From Lachnospiraceae bacterium (lineage in GTDB: Bacteria; Bacillota; Clostridia; Lachnospirales; Lachnospiraceae): 64,000 nucleotides of DNA. The notes under the pieces are model-generated. The model saw only the letters and a list, made by a program, of their open reading frames with translations, did no database searches and was not told the DNA's origin. Positions within the stretch are counted from its first letter, which is position 1, and each line of letters opens with the position of its first letter. A program made the position numbers and the translations under genes. Positions 2,837-63,323 of this stretch are shown here, piece by piece. The stretch is taken from contig JAGAQG010000012.1 of assembly GCA_017622875.1 (NCBI GenBank), forward strand, positions 26,625 through 90,624, read 5' to 3'.

Positions 2837-3355
2837 ATGATGAAACAGGACAGAAAAATTCAGTATCTTACTTTTACCGGTATTCTGGCAGCAATGATTA
2901 CATTGATGACAGCGTATGTGTGCCATATTCCGATCGGAACCAGCGGCGGTTACGTGCATTTTGGTGATGCACTGATCTACATAGGAGCAGCATTGCTTCC
3001 AAAACCATATGCGATTGCAGCAGCAGTGCTCGGCGGTGGATTGGCGGATCTTTTGACAGCACCAATGTGGGCACCGGCAACGATGATCATCAAAGCATTG
3101 ATCGTTCTTCCGTTTACCAGTAAAACACAGAAGCTTTTGAACGTAAGAAATATTGTGGCATTGTTTATCTGTGCGGCGATTACTTGCGTGGGATATTACC
3201 TTGCGGAATATTTCCTTTTTGGAACATGGGCAGTTTTCTTTGCATCCATTTTTCCAAATATGATTCAAGCATTAGGAAGCGGTATTTTCTTTGTGATCAT
3301 TGCGGCAGCGTTGGAAAAAACACAGTTTAAAAACAGAATGTTCAATCGTGCATAA
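2837..3355 (+). CDS. ECF-type transporter S-component (substrate unknown)
   Basis: Small integral membrane protein of about 172 aa with five to six hydrophobic helices. It resembles substrate-binding S-components of energy-coupling-factor transporters, with the typical GGYVHFGDALIYIGAALL-type loop and a GGLADLL segment. No EcfA or EcfT gene is nearby, so it would use the shared EcfAAT module of a group II system. The start at 2837 (ATGATG) is preferred because GAGGAG lies 9 nt upstream; the earlier ATG at 2828 is too close to it. The substrate, probably a vitamin, cannot be assigned. It ends before a bidirectional terminator. Confidence 0.7.
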   Translation: MMKQDRKIQYLTFTGILAAMITLMTAYVCHIPIGTSGGYVHFGDALIYIGAALLPKPYAIAAAVLGGGLADLLTAPMWAPATMIIKALIVLPFTSKTQKLLNVRNIVALFICAAITCVGYYLAEYFLFGTWAVFFASIFPNMIQALGSGIFFVIIAAALEKTQFKNRMFNRA

Positions 3356-3378
3356 ATCATAGAAAGTTGAACTTATGA

Positions 3379-3412
3379 AAAAGGGTGTCCTTCAAACAGG
3401 ACACCCTTTTGT
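3379..3412. terminator. bidirectional intrinsic terminator
   Basis: A 12-bp perfect stem (AAAAGGGTGTCC and GGACACCCTTTT) with an 8-nt loop. It has A-runs and T-runs on opposite sides, so it can end both the S-component transcript on the plus strand and the fbp transcript on the minus strand. Confidence 0.9.
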
Positions 3413-3425
3413 AATTCGTCAGTAT

Positions 3426-5420
3426 TTAGTTTTCGTGTGCTTCCGGTACAGCACCATTTCTGTATGCTTCCAGTAAAGCTAATAAGTCATCGATCTGTGA
3501 CTGAAGTTCGCGTCCCTGATCTGTTTCAGAAATCTTCATACGAGCACCCATACGTTCAAATACGAGAGCGTCATTTGCGATATCGTGGTTATGGTAAATC
3601 GCATCATGACGTCCTGCAAATGGCTGATGGGAAACGATTCGGATGTTGTGGGAGTCGAAGATCAGCGTATAACCTGCGATACCACTGGTTGGCTGATAAG
3701 CCTTACAGAATCCGCCATCAATAACGATGAGTTTTCCGCTGCCTTTGATTGGGCTTTCCCCTTTCTTTGCCTTTACAGGTACATGACCATTGATGATATG
3801 GCAGTGAGGACCATTCAATCCAAATTCTTTTAATACCTTATCACAGATTTCAGGGTCCTGATAAAGAGTATAGTATGCATTTTTTGGTTCTACCCAAACG
3901 TCATCTATATCTGGAAGGAAGCGTCTTTCAAAAGTAGTCATGCGGTCGCGGCCAAATACAGGGCTGTTACGTCCGGTCCAAAGCCACCACATGAAATCAA
4001 GGCCATATTGTTTTTCCGGCGTACCGATACGGTCATAGGATGCTTTACGACAAAGCTGTTCTGCATAATCTAAAAATTCTCTTCCTGAGCGCTCTTTACC
4101 GCCGATGGTGAAGGAAATCAGTTCACCTTCTTCTGTCATAGGAATGCTTCCGTGGTATAAGAGGTTGCCATTCTGAATCTTATAAAGTCCGCCTTTGGAA
4201 TATAAGAAACGGACATGTTTCTGTAGTTTTTCGCTCTGCTTAAAGGAGAGTGTCAACTGATCGATTACATGGCTTTCATCTTCCGTTAGTTCATATGGAT
4301 TCTTTGGATCGATGGTAGGGAAATCACAATCTAAAAGTTCATATTCCTTACCATTTAAAGTGATTGTGCCTTTTTCATAATCAATCATGTTTAACAAAAG
4401 ACGGTCTTCCATGCCATATTCCGGGCGTCTTAAGATTTTCTGACCTTCCAGTTTAAATAAGATGATGGTGATCGCTTTGTACATACGGGCAGAGAGCAGT
4501 TTGTCTTTTTCTGTATATTCGTCTGCATCCGATCCTGTTAATTTTACATTGAAGCAGCTGGTATCACAGTCTTTGTACACTTCGTTTGCAAAGATAGAGA
4601 GCGGACGAAGGGAAATACCGTAGCCTGTTTCGATGACATCCAGGTTATTATAGTGGATAGAGTTGGAAAGTACAGTAGCAACCAGCGTTCGGGAACCACG
4701 GGCAGCGCCCATCCAGAGAATATCGTGATTACCCCACTGAATATCGACACTGTGATGTTCACAAAGCTCATCCATAACGATATCGGCACGAGGACCTCTG
4801 TCAAAAATATCTCCAACAATATGTAAATGGTCTACAGCAAGACGTTTAATCGCTTCGGCAATCGCAGTGATCACGTCATCCGCCTGTCTTGTATCAATAA
4901 TGGATGTAACGATGTTTTCGTAGTAATCCTTTTTTTCCTGTTCTTCCTGATTAACATTCATCAATTCATTGATGATATAGGCATAGCTCTTTGGAAGTGC
5001 TTTACGAACCTTGGAACGGGTATATTTTCCGGCAACGTGTCGGCACAGACCAATGAGACGGTGGATGGTGATGCGATACCATTCTTCCATATCTTCTGTT
5101 TCTTTTGCAATCAGTTCCAGTTTTTCTTCCGGATAATAGATTAAGGTTGCAAGCTCATCTCTGTCACGACGGGATAAGCTGTTTCCGTAAAGTTCATCCA
5201 GTTTTTCCTTAATGACACCGGAACAGGAATTTAAAATGTGCTGAAAAGCTTCGTATTCTCCATGGATATCGGAGATGAAGTGCTCTGTTCCTTTTGGTAA
5301 ATTTAAAATGGCCTGAAGGTTGACAATCTCTGTACCTGCGGCCTGAACAGTCGGATACTGTTTGGCGAGCAGCTGAAGATAATGCAGTTCCTCAGGTTTA
5401 TAGTTCTTTCTTGATTTCAT
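3426..5420 (-). CDS. fbp: class III fructose-1,6-bisphosphatase
   Basis: Gluconeogenic fructose-1,6-bisphosphatase of the class III, manganese-dependent type found in Bacillus and Clostridia, 664 aa as usual for the class. It carries calcineurin-like metallophosphatase motifs: ISDIHGEYEAF near residue 50, DIFDRGPRAD, QWGNHDILWMG and the late NGHVPV. It converts fructose-1,6-bisphosphate to fructose-6-phosphate in the cytosol. The ATG follows a GGGGGAAA site. It is monocistronic, with the terminator at 3379-3412. Confidence 0.96.
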   Translation of the reverse strand: MKSRKNYKPEELHYLQLLAKQYPTVQAAGTEIVNLQAILNLPKGTEHFISDIHGEYEAFQHILNSCSGVIKEKLDELYGNSLSRRDRDELATLIYYPEEKLELIAKETEDMEEWYRITIHRLIGLCRHVAGKYTRSKVRKALPKSYAYIINELMNVNQEEQEKKDYYENIVTSIIDTRQADDVITAIAEAIKRLAVDHLHIVGDIFDRGPRADIVMDELCEHHSVDIQWGNHDILWMGAARGSRTLVATVLSNSIHYNNLDVIETGYGISLRPLSIFANEVYKDCDTSCFNVKLTGSDADEYTEKDKLLSARMYKAITIILFKLEGQKILRRPEYGMEDRLLLNMIDYEKGTITLNGKEYELLDCDFPTIDPKNPYELTEDESHVIDQLTLSFKQSEKLQKHVRFLYSKGGLYKIQNGNLLYHGSIPMTEEGELISFTIGGKERSGREFLDYAEQLCRKASYDRIGTPEKQYGLDFMWWLWTGRNSPVFGRDRMTTFERRFLPDIDDVWVEPKNAYYTLYQDPEICDKVLKEFGLNGPHCHIINGHVPVKAKKGESPIKGSGKLIVIDGGFCKAYQPTSGIAGYTLIFDSHNIRIVSHQPFAGRHDAIYHNHDIANDALVFERMGARMKISETDQGRELQSQIDDLLALLEAYRNGAVPEAHEN

Positions 5421-57155: not shown

Positions 57156-57209
57156 ATGTGGTTTTACGGAAAAGCTAACAACAGCTCTTATGGAGGAATT
57201 AAATTGTGA
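57156..57209 (+). CDS. 17-residue leader peptide overlapping atpB
   Basis: Reading frame MWFYGKANNSSYGGIKL with a good AGGAG site 4-5 nt upstream. Its stop lies 17 nt inside atpB in another frame. atpB itself (ATG at 57190) has only a weak ribosome-binding site, so translation may be handed over from this leader. No atpI or atpZ gene is present. Confidence 0.4.
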   Translation: MWFYGKANNSSYGGIKL

Positions 57210-57852
57210 AACAGCATTTACCATTCCAATCTTCGGAGGAATTGACGTAGGAGAATCGGTGGTAGTCAGCTGGATTATTATGGCAGTACTCGTATTATTG
57301 TCCATTGTTCTTACCAGAAATCTGAAGGTAGAAAACCCCGGAAAAGGCCAGCTTTTACTGGAAATGGCAGTTGGCGGTCTGCATGGGATGGTAAATGGAA
57401 TGGTAGGTGAGAAAGGTAAGCGATATGTTCCATATCTGATGACAGTGTTGGTTTATATCGGGTTTGCAAATGTGATTGGTCTGTTTGGATTTAAGCCCCC
57501 TACAAAAGATCTGACAGTAACCATTGCACTGGCGGGCATGAGTATTGTATTGATCGAATTTGCAGGAATCCGGGAAAAAGGTACAAAGAAATGGTTAAAG
57601 AGTTTTGCAGAGCCGGTTGCAATCATGACCCCGTTCAACATTCTTGAAATTTTAATCAAACCGTTGTCATTGTGTATGCGACTTTTCGGAAATGTACTGG
57701 GAGCATTCGTTATTATGGAACTGATCAAGATTATGGTCCCAATCGCACTTCCAGTTCCATTCAGTTTATATTTTGATATTTTTGATGGCTTGATTCAGGC
57801 GTATGTATTTGTATTTTTAACATCTTTGTTTATTAAAGAGGCAATTGAATAG
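57190..57852 (+). CDS. atpB: F1Fo-ATP synthase subunit a
   Basis: Membrane subunit a of the Fo motor, 220 aa with five to six helices, at the short end for the family. The essential arginine lies in LCMRLFGNVLGAFV near residue 162, and the last helix reads FDGLIQAYVFVFLTSLFI. It forms the ion path with the c ring. The start ATG lacks a strong ribosome-binding site and overlaps the leader frame. It is the first gene of atpB-E-F-(HA)-G-D-C. Confidence 0.93.
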   Translation: MEELNCETAFTIPIFGGIDVGESVVVSWIIMAVLVLLSIVLTRNLKVENPGKGQLLLEMAVGGLHGMVNGMVGEKGKRYVPYLMTVLVYIGFANVIGLFGFKPPTKDLTVTIALAGMSIVLIEFAGIREKGTKKWLKSFAEPVAIMTPFNILEILIKPLSLCMRLFGNVLGAFVIMELIKIMVPIALPVPFSLYFDIFDGLIQAYVFVFLTSLFIKEAIE

Positions 57853-57906: not shown

Positions 57907-58131
57907 ATGTCAACATTATTAGCAATTGGTGCAGGTATTGCAGTATTTACAGGTGTAGGAGCCGGTATCGGTATTGGAGTCGCAACCTCCAAGGCAGCAG
58001 AAGCAATCGCAAGACAGCCGGAAGCAGAGTCAAAGATTATGAAGATCTTAATGCTTGGTTGTGCGTTGGCAGAAGCAACCGCAATTTATGGTTTCGTTAT
58101 TGCGCTTTTGATTATTATCTTTTTGAAATAA
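57907..58131 (+). CDS. atpE: F1Fo-ATP synthase subunit c
   Basis: Two-helix proteolipid of 74 aa. The loop ARQPEA is at 35-40 and the ion-binding carboxylate is E56 in ALAEATAIYG. The glutamine and serine that define Na+-binding rings (Q32, S66 in Ilyobacter tartaricus numbering) are I23 and A57 here, so the ring is more likely proton-coupled. The start at 57907 follows AGAAAGGAT; an earlier in-frame ATG adds 11 residues and lacks such a site. Confidence 0.95.
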   Translation: MSTLLAIGAGIAVFTGVGAGIGIGVATSKAAEAIARQPEAESKIMKILMLGCALAEATAIYGFVIALLIIIFLK

Positions 58132-58152: not shown

Positions 58153-58641
58153 GTGCTACAGTTTAGTCCTTTTAACTTAATCTGCATCGTGCTGAACCTG
58201 CTGATTCTCCTGGTGCTGATGAAAAAATTTTTATATAAGCCGGTGCTGGGAGTTATTGCAAAGCGTCAGGAATTACTGGATAGTCAGTTTGAAAAAGCAA
58301 AGGCCTGTCAGGAAGAAGCCCAGCAGTTAAAAATGCAGTATGAATCTTCCCTCTCTGAAGCAAAAGAAGAAAAACGTAAGATTATCAGAGAAGCAAAGGC
58401 ACAGGCAGATGCGGAAGCTGAAACAATCGTTGCACAGGCAGAGGAAGAAGCAAAACAGATTGTGATGGAAGCAAAGAAAACGGGTCTTGATGAATTAGAA
58501 AAGGCAATTAAGACTGCGGATACGGAAATTACAAAACTGGCAGTTGAAGCTGCATCAAAAATCGTATCACAGGCATCCTGTGAAAAAAATGATTATGAAA
58601 TTTATGAGGAATTCCTAAAAAAAGCAGGTGAAAAAGAGTGA
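58153..58641 (+). CDS. atpF: F1Fo-ATP synthase subunit b
   Basis: Peripheral stalk subunit of 162 aa. One N-terminal membrane helix ([19 protein letters not shown]) is followed by a long charged helix rich in Glu, Lys, Ala and Gln. The start is GTG after AAAGGCAGGGAAAG. It overlaps the next gene by 4 nt (GTGA). It would bind the delta portion of the fused protein encoded by the next gene. Confidence 0.92.
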
Positions 58642-60653
58642 AACAGACAGTAATGAAATACGTGGAAATGCTTGCAAAACTGCAGATTCCGGAAAATGCA
58701 ATTCTGCAGACCAGCGAAATATTCTCTTCAATTCCGCAGGTGAAAGAAACACTTGCTGATCCGGGAATTTTGCTTTATAAGAAGCATCATTTGATTGAAA
58801 CAGTCTTCCCGCAAAAAGTGCAGGATGTTTTAAAACTCCTGTGTGATGATCAGGAGATTGCTCTTTGGGATGAAATCGTAGAAAAGAGAAAACAGAAGAC
58901 ACCTCAGAGTGAAGAATGTCTGGAGGTCATTTTAACTTACGTGACGGCACCTACTGAAGAACAGCTGGAAGGAATCAAAAACTTCCTGAAAAAGAAATAT
59001 GGTGCCAAAGAAATCCATATGGTTGAAAAGAAAGATGCGTCCATTGGCGGCGGATTTAAGCTTCAGGTCGGGATGGATGAATATGACTGGAGTACAAAAG
59101 AAAAAACACGTCAGTTACAAGAAAAACTGTATACAGTCGCAAAAGAGCAGTCTGGCAGCGGTAAAGAGATTATTTCTATTTTAAAAGAAGAAATTGAGAA
59201 CTTTGATGCACAGATTCAGGGAAGAGAAGTTGGATATGTAAACTTTGTAGGTGATGGAATCGCCAATGTTGATGGCGTGGAACATGCGGAATACGGAGAA
59301 ATATTACTTTTTGATACCGGTGTGAAAGGAATGGTGCAGGATATCAGAAGAGATGAGATAGGTTGTATTCTTTTCGGCAGAGAAGGCGAATTAAAAGAAG
59401 GTACCCGCGTGGTACGAACAGGGAAAAGGGCCGGTATTTCAGTAGGTGAAGGATTCCTTGGACGTGTTGTTAATGCACTTGGGACACCCATTGATGGCCT
59501 GGGCGAGATTGAAGCTTGTGGATATTATCCACTTGAGCGAAAAGCACCGGGCATCGTGGAACGAAAGTCTGTAACAGTACCTATGGAAACAGGAATATTG
59601 GCAATCGATTCCATGTTCCCAATCGGACGAGGACAGCGTGAGCTGATCATTGGTGACAGACAGACTGGAAAAACATCTATTGCGATTGATACAATTCTGA
59701 ACCAGAAAGGTAAGGATGTCATCTGTATCTATGTGGCAATCGGGCAGAAAGCGTCAACCGTTGCCAAATTAGTAAATACTTTAAAGAAAAATGATGCAAT
59801 TAACTATACGGTAGTTGTTTCAGCGACTGCCAGTGAACCGGCATCTTTACAATATATTGCCCCTTATGCAGGTACCGCTATGGCAGAATACTTTATGCAT
59901 CAGGGAAAAGATGTACTGATCGTTTACGACGATTTATCGAAGCACGCAGTGGCATACCGTGCATTGTCCCTTCTTCTGGAGAGGTCTCCCGGACGAGAAG
60001 CATATCCGGGAGATGTCTTCTACCTTCATTCCAGACTGCTGGAGCGTTCCAGCCGTTTAAGTGAGGAATATGGAGGAGGCTCTATCACTGCACTTCCGAT
60101 TATCGAGACACAGGCAGGCGATGTGTCTGCTTATATACCGACCAATGTAATTTCCATTACAGACGGACAGATTTTCCTGGAAAGCAATCTGTTTTTCTCA
60201 GGAATGCGTCCTGCAGTGAATGTGGGTCTTTCTGTTTCACGAGTAGGCGGAGCAGCCCAGACAAAGGCAATGAAAAAGGCTGCCGGAAGTATCCGAATAG
60301 ACCTGGCACAGTATCGTGAAATGGAAGTCTTTACCCAGTTTGCATCCGATCTGGATGATGCCACGAAAGAGCAGCTGGCATATGGCGGAGGGCTGATGGA
60401 ATTACTCAAACAGCCTTTATGTCATCCGATGAGTCTGCACGAGCAGGTAATTACATTGTTTTTAGCTTCTAAAAAACAGTTTTTATTTGTGGAAAAGAAG
60501 CAAATCAAAGAATATCAGCAGGCATTTTTGAAGTATTTTGAAGAAGAGCATGCTGAGATTGTAAAAGAAATTGAACAGAAGAAAGATTTGTCAGAAGATT
60601 TGAAAGAGCAGATCTTAGAAGCAGCAGAAAATTTTAAAAGCAGGTGGAAATAA
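58638..60653 (+). CDS. atpHA: fused F1 delta-alpha subunit
   Basis: One continuous 671-residue protein. Residues 1-172 are a complete delta subunit, ending with the family's [18 protein letters not shown] short SGSGKE linker leads directly into alpha. Walker A GDRQTGKT is at 339-346, about 170 residues later than in a stand-alone alpha, and [13 protein letters not shown] and [14 protein letters not shown] are intact. No in-frame ATG, GTG or TTG with a ribosome-binding site occurs near the junction. F1 normally has three alpha and one delta, so this fusion needs cleavage, a three-delta stalk, or a separate delta elsewhere. The start is GTG, overlapping atpF. Confidence 0.93.

Positions 60654-63323
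<2,670 letters not shown>

Follow-up and report, generated by a model that had tools for sequence, protein, structure and literature searches.

F1Fo ATP synthases are described by Ueno et al. 2025 (PMC12229609) as carrying, in every case known so far, a single a subunit held by a single peripheral stalk. In that work, the delta subunit of the PS3 enzyme was re-engineered by deleting its N-domain and fusing its C-domain to alpha (PDB 9jc1). The construct formed up to three b2 stalks with one a subunit each and had an H+/ATP ratio of 5.8 versus 3.0, and electron cryomicroscopy (cryo-EM) classes with 0, 1, 2 and 3 stalks accounted for 15, 51, 26 and 8%. The paper argues that the N-domain, located on the three-fold axis, limits the enzyme to one stalk, and its Discussion names natural N-domain-free fusions from Acidaminococcus fermentans and under UniProt G4Q3K6 and A0A1I2C5T3. 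The subject of the present analysis is a natural delta-alpha gene from a Lachnospiraceae bacterium. It lies at 58638-60653 of a 64,000-nucleotide stretch (assembly GCA_017622875.1, contig JAGAQG010000012.1; G000:C65:26625-90624 in our numbering), hereafter the window, and encodes both subunits of an F-type ATP synthase as one chain of 671 amino acids (aa) that keeps the delta N-domain. Judged from its sequence, this fusion, if left uncut, most likely gives F1 three stalk-docking sites.

Like the PS3 construct, the window chain joins the delta C-terminus to the alpha N-terminus through a short linker, with the delta C-domain in frame and no separate alpha in the operon. It differs in that delta residues 2-104, the N-domain, are gone from the construct, in which epsilon is also truncated (PMC12229609). 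The Acidaminococcus fermentans gene is likewise a delta-alpha fusion in an F-ATPase operon, but according to the same paper it lacks the N-domain. Another weld is the mycobacterial b-delta fusion (NF009961, PRK13428), in which delta is also attached to a stator-side subunit. Mycobacterial delta fused to b is present in one copy per complex; in the window, b is separate and delta sits on alpha, giving three copies if all chains stay fused. The mycobacterial type was considered for this locus and rejected, as b is a separate 162-aa gene on which PRK13428 scores 39.7 against a cut-off of 328. The alternate F1F0 (N-ATPase) was rejected as well, with TIGR03324 scoring 612 bits on alpha (cut-off 750.5) and a delta also present. 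Canonical F1Fo operons share the gene order and all subunit families with the window but have a stop and a new start between delta and alpha. V/A-type ATPases have two or three peripheral stalks, attached without an OSCP-like delta. The proposed window enzyme would resemble them in attaching two or more stalks to a three-fold head, although the subunits differ. Among the papers listed by a literature search of titles and abstracts, with preprints and most subscription journals outside its scope, only PMC12229609 treats a delta-alpha fusion.

The one-chain fusion at 58638-60653 is confirmed. The plus-strand frame is open across all 671 aa, with no stop between delta and alpha, and starts with a GTG that overlaps the TGA stop of atpF (shared GTGA). 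Pfam places OSCP/delta at residues 22-164 (65.5 bits) and the three alpha domains (barrel, nucleotide-binding, C-terminal) at residues 196-666. The NCBIfam atpA model TIGR00962 gives 760.5 bits against a cut-off of 484.45, and a hidden Markov model (HMM) of the delta N-domain also matches. A sequence-only reading of the window had described delta and alpha as one polypeptide in an operon without a separate atpH or atpA and without an in-frame start with a ribosome-binding site at the junction. These observations hold: neither stand-alone gene is present in the fused operon, and no ATG, GTG or TTG lies in frame in the stretch of 26 codons that surrounds the alpha start. The problem it posed, that F1 holds three alphas and one delta, is judged real.

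The operon order a-c-b-[delta-alpha]-gamma-beta-epsilon is intact, with starts at 57190, 57907, 58153, 58638, 60654, 61544 and 62916. Alpha, beta, gamma, epsilon, delta, a, b and c are all matched by Pfam, and Walker A motifs occur in both catalytic-head subunits (GDRQTGKT in alpha, GGAGVGKT in beta). On either side lie leuS and a minus-strand LysR-type gene, both named from sequence alone. The features are:

57190..57852 (+), subunit a (atpB), 220 aa, PF00119 at an expectation value (E) of 2e-45
57907..58131 (+), subunit c (atpE), 74 aa counted from ATG (its entry in the list of open reading frames, ORFs, begins at GTG 57874), PF00137
58153..58641 (+), subunit b (atpF), 162 aa, single copy, its stop overlapping the fusion start, PF00430
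58638..60653 (+), delta-alpha fusion (atpH-atpA), 671 aa, matched by Pfam, TIGR00962 and the N-domain HMM
58638..58901 (+), delta N-domain, fusion residues 1-88, six modelled helices, from the AlphaFold2 (AF2) model and the N-domain HMM
58914..59132 (+), delta C-domain, about residues 93-165, the b-stalk dock, from the AF2 model, the C-domain HMM and the 9jc1 alignment
59148..59225 (+), linker and former alpha N-terminal helix, residues 171-196, with no in-frame ATG, GTG or TTG and low model confidence over 171-194
59652..59675 (+), alpha Walker A GDRQTGKT, residues 339-346, from the translation
60654..61547 (+), subunit gamma (atpG), PF00231, E 8e-90
61544..62950 (+), subunit beta (atpD), PF00006
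62916..63323 (+), subunit epsilon (atpC), PF02823 and PF00401

A survey of Lachnospiraceae for the same fusion and for separate delta genes, as the sequence-only reading had suggested, found both. The fusion protein was searched against 397 genomes of the family, 353 of which matched at E <= 1e-30. Loci were drawn from at least those family matches that were listed and from the best 80 of at least 592 named relatives in a contig scan. Collapsing identical alpha cores (residues 20-400) reduced 191 loci to 167 sequences, two of them canonical outgroups. The 165 distinct sequences comprise 44 with separate delta and alpha (class A), 46 full fusions including the window (class B), and 75 in which only the delta C-domain is joined to alpha (class C, to which L070 was reassigned from class B by hand). 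Class B occurs in at least 26 of the 397 genomes and class C in at least 46, both figures being lower bounds for this family.

The classes are separated by HMMs of the two delta domains, trained on 43 stand-alone class A deltas. The N-domain model matches 43 of 43 in class A (its training set), 46 of 46 in class B and 0 of 75 in class C; the C-domain model matches 43/43, 46/46 and 75/75, so that the C-domain is retained in all 121 fusions. Reversed sequences gave no matches with either model. The one remaining class A row, L103, has a separate delta ORF that BLAST missed and that matches both models (E 2.6e-22 and 2e-18). Class B includes Lachnospiraceae GAM79 (L109, a complete genome), 'Lactobacillus' rogosae, Agathobacter ruminis, Pseudobutyrivibrio xylanivorans (L119), Oribacterium parvum and Ruminococcus flavefaciens; class C includes Butyrivibrio hungatei, Shuttleworthella satelles, Absicoccus porci and Mogibacterium. 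Like the PS3 construct, class C chains have no delta N-domain. Class C is the kind already described in PMC12229609, now found in 75 distinct sequences, and class B, with its N-domain, is new relative to the fusions named there. The class C relatives were absent from the sequence-only reading.

Class C was also met in other families of the same phylum, where 27 genomes among the matches listed, mostly weak-match ones, were re-examined. The delta-C-alpha chains there (L234-L236, L238-L240, L243, L244, L249, L252 and L257) have alphas 53-65% identical to the window's, except for L238, which is cut by the locus end, at 41%. In L239, the PF00213 match extends upstream across stops.

This recurrence bears on whether the window fusion is a sequencing or assembly error, or a decaying gene, a base error at the junction having been raised earlier. 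The chance of this is negligible. Nothing was found in its favour, and the explanation was rejected, as the identical layout occurs in 46 distinct sequences, one of them from a complete genome, and the Walker A motif and many other alpha residues are invariant across 25 class B sequences in one alignment. The fusion observation is right and more than chance.

In some genomes the fused chain appears sufficient. The 72 fusion genomes were searched with PF00213 (delta) and TIGR00962 (atpA), and in 26 of them the fused chain is both the sole F-type alpha over the cut-off and the sole delta match (8/26 class B and 18/46 class C genomes; completeness is 95% or more for 18 of the 26). Searches of these 26 genomes turned up neither a second delta nor a free alpha gene or a separate N-domain, and F1 there must therefore come from the fused chain. 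A split delta with its N-domain encoded elsewhere was rejected, as each has a single PF00213 match at E <= 0.001. The other 46 genomes hold a second alpha or delta (G362 and G168, with a second delta at a contig end, are counted here), and 44 of them have a stand-alone alpha, one cut by a contig end and one split over two frames.

The window's own genome belongs to the latter group. Its contig C37, outside the window and therefore absent from the sequence-only reading, carries a second, canonical F-ATPase with the order a-c-b-delta-alpha-gamma-beta-epsilon, in which delta and alpha have frames of their own, of 183 and 502 aa. The suggestion that another delta might exist elsewhere was therefore correct for this genome, but it fails as a general answer, since none was found in 26 of the 72. 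The C37 alpha is 59% identical to the fused alpha. The two operons also differ in their c subunits, aligned by eye. At the Na+-ligand positions, that of C37 carries Gln, Glu and Thr. The window c (GAGIGIGVATSK...CALAEATAIY) has no Gln, and Ala follows the key Glu, so that Gln32 and Ser/Thr66 of the full ligand set (Gln32, Glu65, Ser/Thr66) are missing. By the ligand rule given in PMC2359735, these residues mark the fused enzyme as a predicted H+ type and the C37 enzyme as a predicted Na+ type. For Pseudobutyrivibrio ruminis, both Na+- and H+-dependent ATP synthase activities have been reported in membranes (review PMC11026938, citing Schoelmerich et al. 2020). Regarding possible ion circuits in the window's genome (87.7% complete), Ech hydrogenase was considered as an H+-circuit partner and rejected, since no PF00346 match was found; rnfC has three matches over the cut-off.

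These data also bear on the idea that a protease trims two fused chains out of three, or that hybrid heads form with the stand-alone alpha of the second operon. A source of such alphas or deltas exists in the window's genome and in 45 others of the 72. Set against it are the 59% identity of the C37 alpha and its place in an operon with a Na+-type c. The 26 fusion genomes in which no other F-type alpha or delta was found argue against hybrid heads, though not against trimming. Overall, this explanation is considered unlikely.

A different way to obtain free alpha would be internal initiation in the same gene, leaving only one chain in three fused. In class A, 44 of 44 alphas start with ATG, GTG or TTG after a strong Shine-Dalgarno (SD) sequence (strong meaning a duplex energy of -7 or better; median -15.3), and in 43 of 44 this start lies exactly 8 codons ahead of the IISIL helix. 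Fused junctions differ from this pattern. No start codon at all is present at 18 of 46 class B junctions (the window and 17 others), a higher share than the 183 of 790 segments elsewhere in alpha, and at 30 of 75 class C junctions, again a higher share than the 331 of 1295. Where a start codon exists (28/46 and 45/75), the share with a strong SD is near background (0.18 vs 0.13 in class B, 0.22 vs 0.23 in class C), and the five strong-SD candidates in class B are spread over four positions. Of the 75 class C chains, 16 share a start codon at +3, within the alpha helix, and 6 of these have a strong SD; in class B such a codon occurs in just one chain of 46. The window itself contains a suitably placed ATT, a codon seldom used as a start. 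An internal start was rejected for the window as regards ATG, GTG and TTG, and as a conserved mechanism of class B; a second product made from such a start is not a conserved feature of that class. The picture is less clean in class C, where a few chains may yield a shortened alpha from the +3 start. As an account of the stoichiometry, internal initiation is very improbable.

The history of the fusion was followed on an alpha tree of 151 of the 167 sequences, with N-terminal columns excluded; each of the 16 left off shares more than 93% identity with a retained sequence of its own class. Counts were taken only from uncollapsed trees, since collapsing weak branches inflates the number of changes. 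The alpha tree requires a minimum of 21 changes among A, B and C, against a mean of 65.7 in 100 label shuffles, with at least 8 changes between fused and separate genes and at least 14 in N-domain presence among fused chains. An alpha+beta+gamma tree, which has missing data (beta for 95 and gamma for 137 of 151 rows), gives 24, 10 and 15 changes, respectively. Only 3 independent pairs for fusion and 5 for the N-domain lie on fully supported branches, and the counts of 8 and 14 therefore rest partly on weak ones. Locally, L118 (class B) sits among rows with separate genes, L114 (Mediterraneibacter catenae) being one of them. The class C chain L126 neighbours L047 of class B, and L201 of class C neighbours L061 of class B, these last two belonging to one genus, g44 (G043 and G358). 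The fusion thus seems to have arisen several times in related bacteria. Parsimony does not separate gain from loss; nevertheless, we infer loss rather than gain of the N-domain in class C, and the full fusion of class B is a plausible intermediate toward it. Some class B chains nested within class C could reflect operon exchange.

Conservation was compared between classes in bins of alpha identity. In all four bins the delta C-domain is better conserved in class B than in class A. The N-domain is more conserved in class B at 75-80% alpha identity (0.367 vs 0.340) and in two closer bins. Conservation of the alpha N-helix is highest in A, intermediate in B and lowest in C in three of the bins; in the remaining one, A and B are equal.

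Structure prediction is consistent with this domain layout. The window chain was modelled with AlphaFold2 as a single chain from 25 class B sequences, and a class C model was made from L126. The window model shows an N-domain of six helices (residues 3-86) and an alpha/beta C-domain (95-170), followed by a poorly predicted linker, one helix at 176-189 and the alpha barrel. Its predicted local distance difference test (pLDDT) score is 74-88 over residues 1-80 and 75-80 over 101-150. Window residues 101-667 align with chain 9jc1_I residues 9-573 (E 4.8e-184). In Foldseek, 9jc1 chains take ranks 1, 3 and 8 among PDB matches of the window model and ranks 1-3 for the class C model. The VIA-align matches listed, 50 per model, cover mainly the alpha part, and 9jc1 is not among them.

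The sequence-only reading had also considered a stalk holding three deltas. Its direction was right, but a dock for a separate b2 stalk on each alpha is the sharper reading, because the engineered delta-C/alpha fusion formed up to three stalks (PMC12229609). In the proposed mechanism, each F1 head would carry three uncut delta-alpha chains. Each delta C-domain would dock in cis on its own alpha and form a ready site for a b2 stalk, and with three C-domains docked in cis, extra stalks become possible. Only one of the three N-domains would fill the single dimple on the F1 symmetry axis, and the other two would hang free. The head would take one stalk and probably more. Each extra b2 stalk would bring its own a subunit, raising the number of ions moved per ATP, which would aid ATP synthesis on a weak gradient. 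Many relatives (class C) would later have dropped the surplus N-domain. We infer the absence of trimming, docking in cis, a single docked N-domain and more than one stalk. An H+-type F1Fo that uses the chain as made, with three delta-alpha chains per head and one or probably more stalks, is the reading we favour, with somewhat better than even confidence. More tentatively, and with slightly less than an even chance, the clade would contain natural multi-stalk F1Fo enzymes with two or three b2-a stators per rotor and a higher H+/ATP ratio, in some species beside a single-stalk Na+ enzyme, the window fusion being a step toward repeatedly evolved N-domain-free forms.

Several observations weigh against three uncut chains with more than one stalk. 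The N-domain retained in class B is the element that may hold canonical enzymes to one stalk, and class B may be single-stalk; its retention speaks for a capping role. The operon has only one b and one a gene, and extra stalks would therefore need raised translation of both. At an alpha identity of 0.70-0.75 the N-domain is less conserved in class B (0.279) than in class A (0.329). Stand-alone alpha and delta exist on C37, second alphas or deltas occur in 46 of the 72 fusion genomes, and at the gene level trimming, or assembly with only one fused chain, would be compatible with the evidence. Median SD energies at the junctions are slightly stronger than background (-5.25 vs -3.9 in class B, -5.4 vs -4.7 in class C), and the +3 codon recurs in class C. 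The single-chain models are low in confidence (mean pLDDT 69 for the window and 70 for class C), and whole-chain superposition on 9jc1 is poor, with root-mean-square deviations of 12.0 and 9.3, respectively, as is to be expected where parts of a model are poorly predicted.

The most serious competitor is a single-stalk enzyme with two passenger deltas, in which the fusion is a neutral or assembly-helping weld, one delta would function normally and the other two would stay idle because nothing requires them. This is a real contender, held to be a little less than evenly probable. It agrees with the single a and b genes, with the limit that PMC12229609 ascribes to the N-domain, and with the N-domain being kept in 46 of 46 class B chains, where in three of the four bins its divergence does not exceed that seen in class A. 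Set against it are the delta C-domain kept in all 121 fusions and the recurrent N-domain change among fused chains, most simply loss (as between L061 and L201), which suggests that extra N-domains matter. Taken together, the earlier interpretation is partly supported: it was right on the puzzle, and it was made without the known precedent (PMC12229609).

If each alpha does carry its own dock, as in the favoured reading, stator number and the ion cost of ATP would become an evolvable trait, for which gut and rumen anaerobes living on weak gradients would be a natural setting. The class A, B and C relatives offer a ready comparison, testable in cultured Pseudobutyrivibrio xylanivorans and Agathobacter ruminis (class B) and Butyrivibrio hungatei (class C).

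Relatives also show unusual layouts. In L205 (1129-3489; G068:C33), b is fused in frame to delta-C-alpha, forming one 787-aa b-deltaC-alpha chain that holds the only b (PF00430), delta and F-type alpha found in its 96%-complete genome. This layout would give three b per head, an odd number for b2 stalks. L253 and L254 (G743 and G580) have frames of 281 and 285 aa in which b and a delta C-domain are fused. Alpha is separate there, an N-domain was not seen, and PF00213 matches weakly (5.7e-5, and 6.9e-4, the latter under the cut-off). Such a b-deltaC arrangement is another in which several stalks could attach. In L251 (G676), an 86-aa frame next to a separate alpha encodes a delta C-domain on its own, so that the N-domain is missing without fusion, and the 299-aa delta frame of L237/L256 (G441:C36) contains two C-domain matches in tandem. 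In genus g470 (L241, L242, L245, L246, L248), frames of 109-164 aa match the delta N-domain alone, with no ATPase subunit match within the fetched stretch; they are possibly chance matches or a split delta.

Other peculiarities concern Fo. A class C subclade with an aberrant Fo (L105-L108, also L161-L164, L167-L169 and L195-L200) has c subunits that carry a long extension at the N-terminus and total about 110-160 aa; subunit a of L105-L108 is about 270-296 aa long and 24-29% identical to the window's. L102 has tandem c ORFs (3315-3530 and 3630-3845) that score equally against the window's c. Finally, the class B fusion of L066 (G293:C37; 758-aa frame) extends at its C-terminus into an additional charged tail, and its residues 683-757 match the b subunit at 35% identity.

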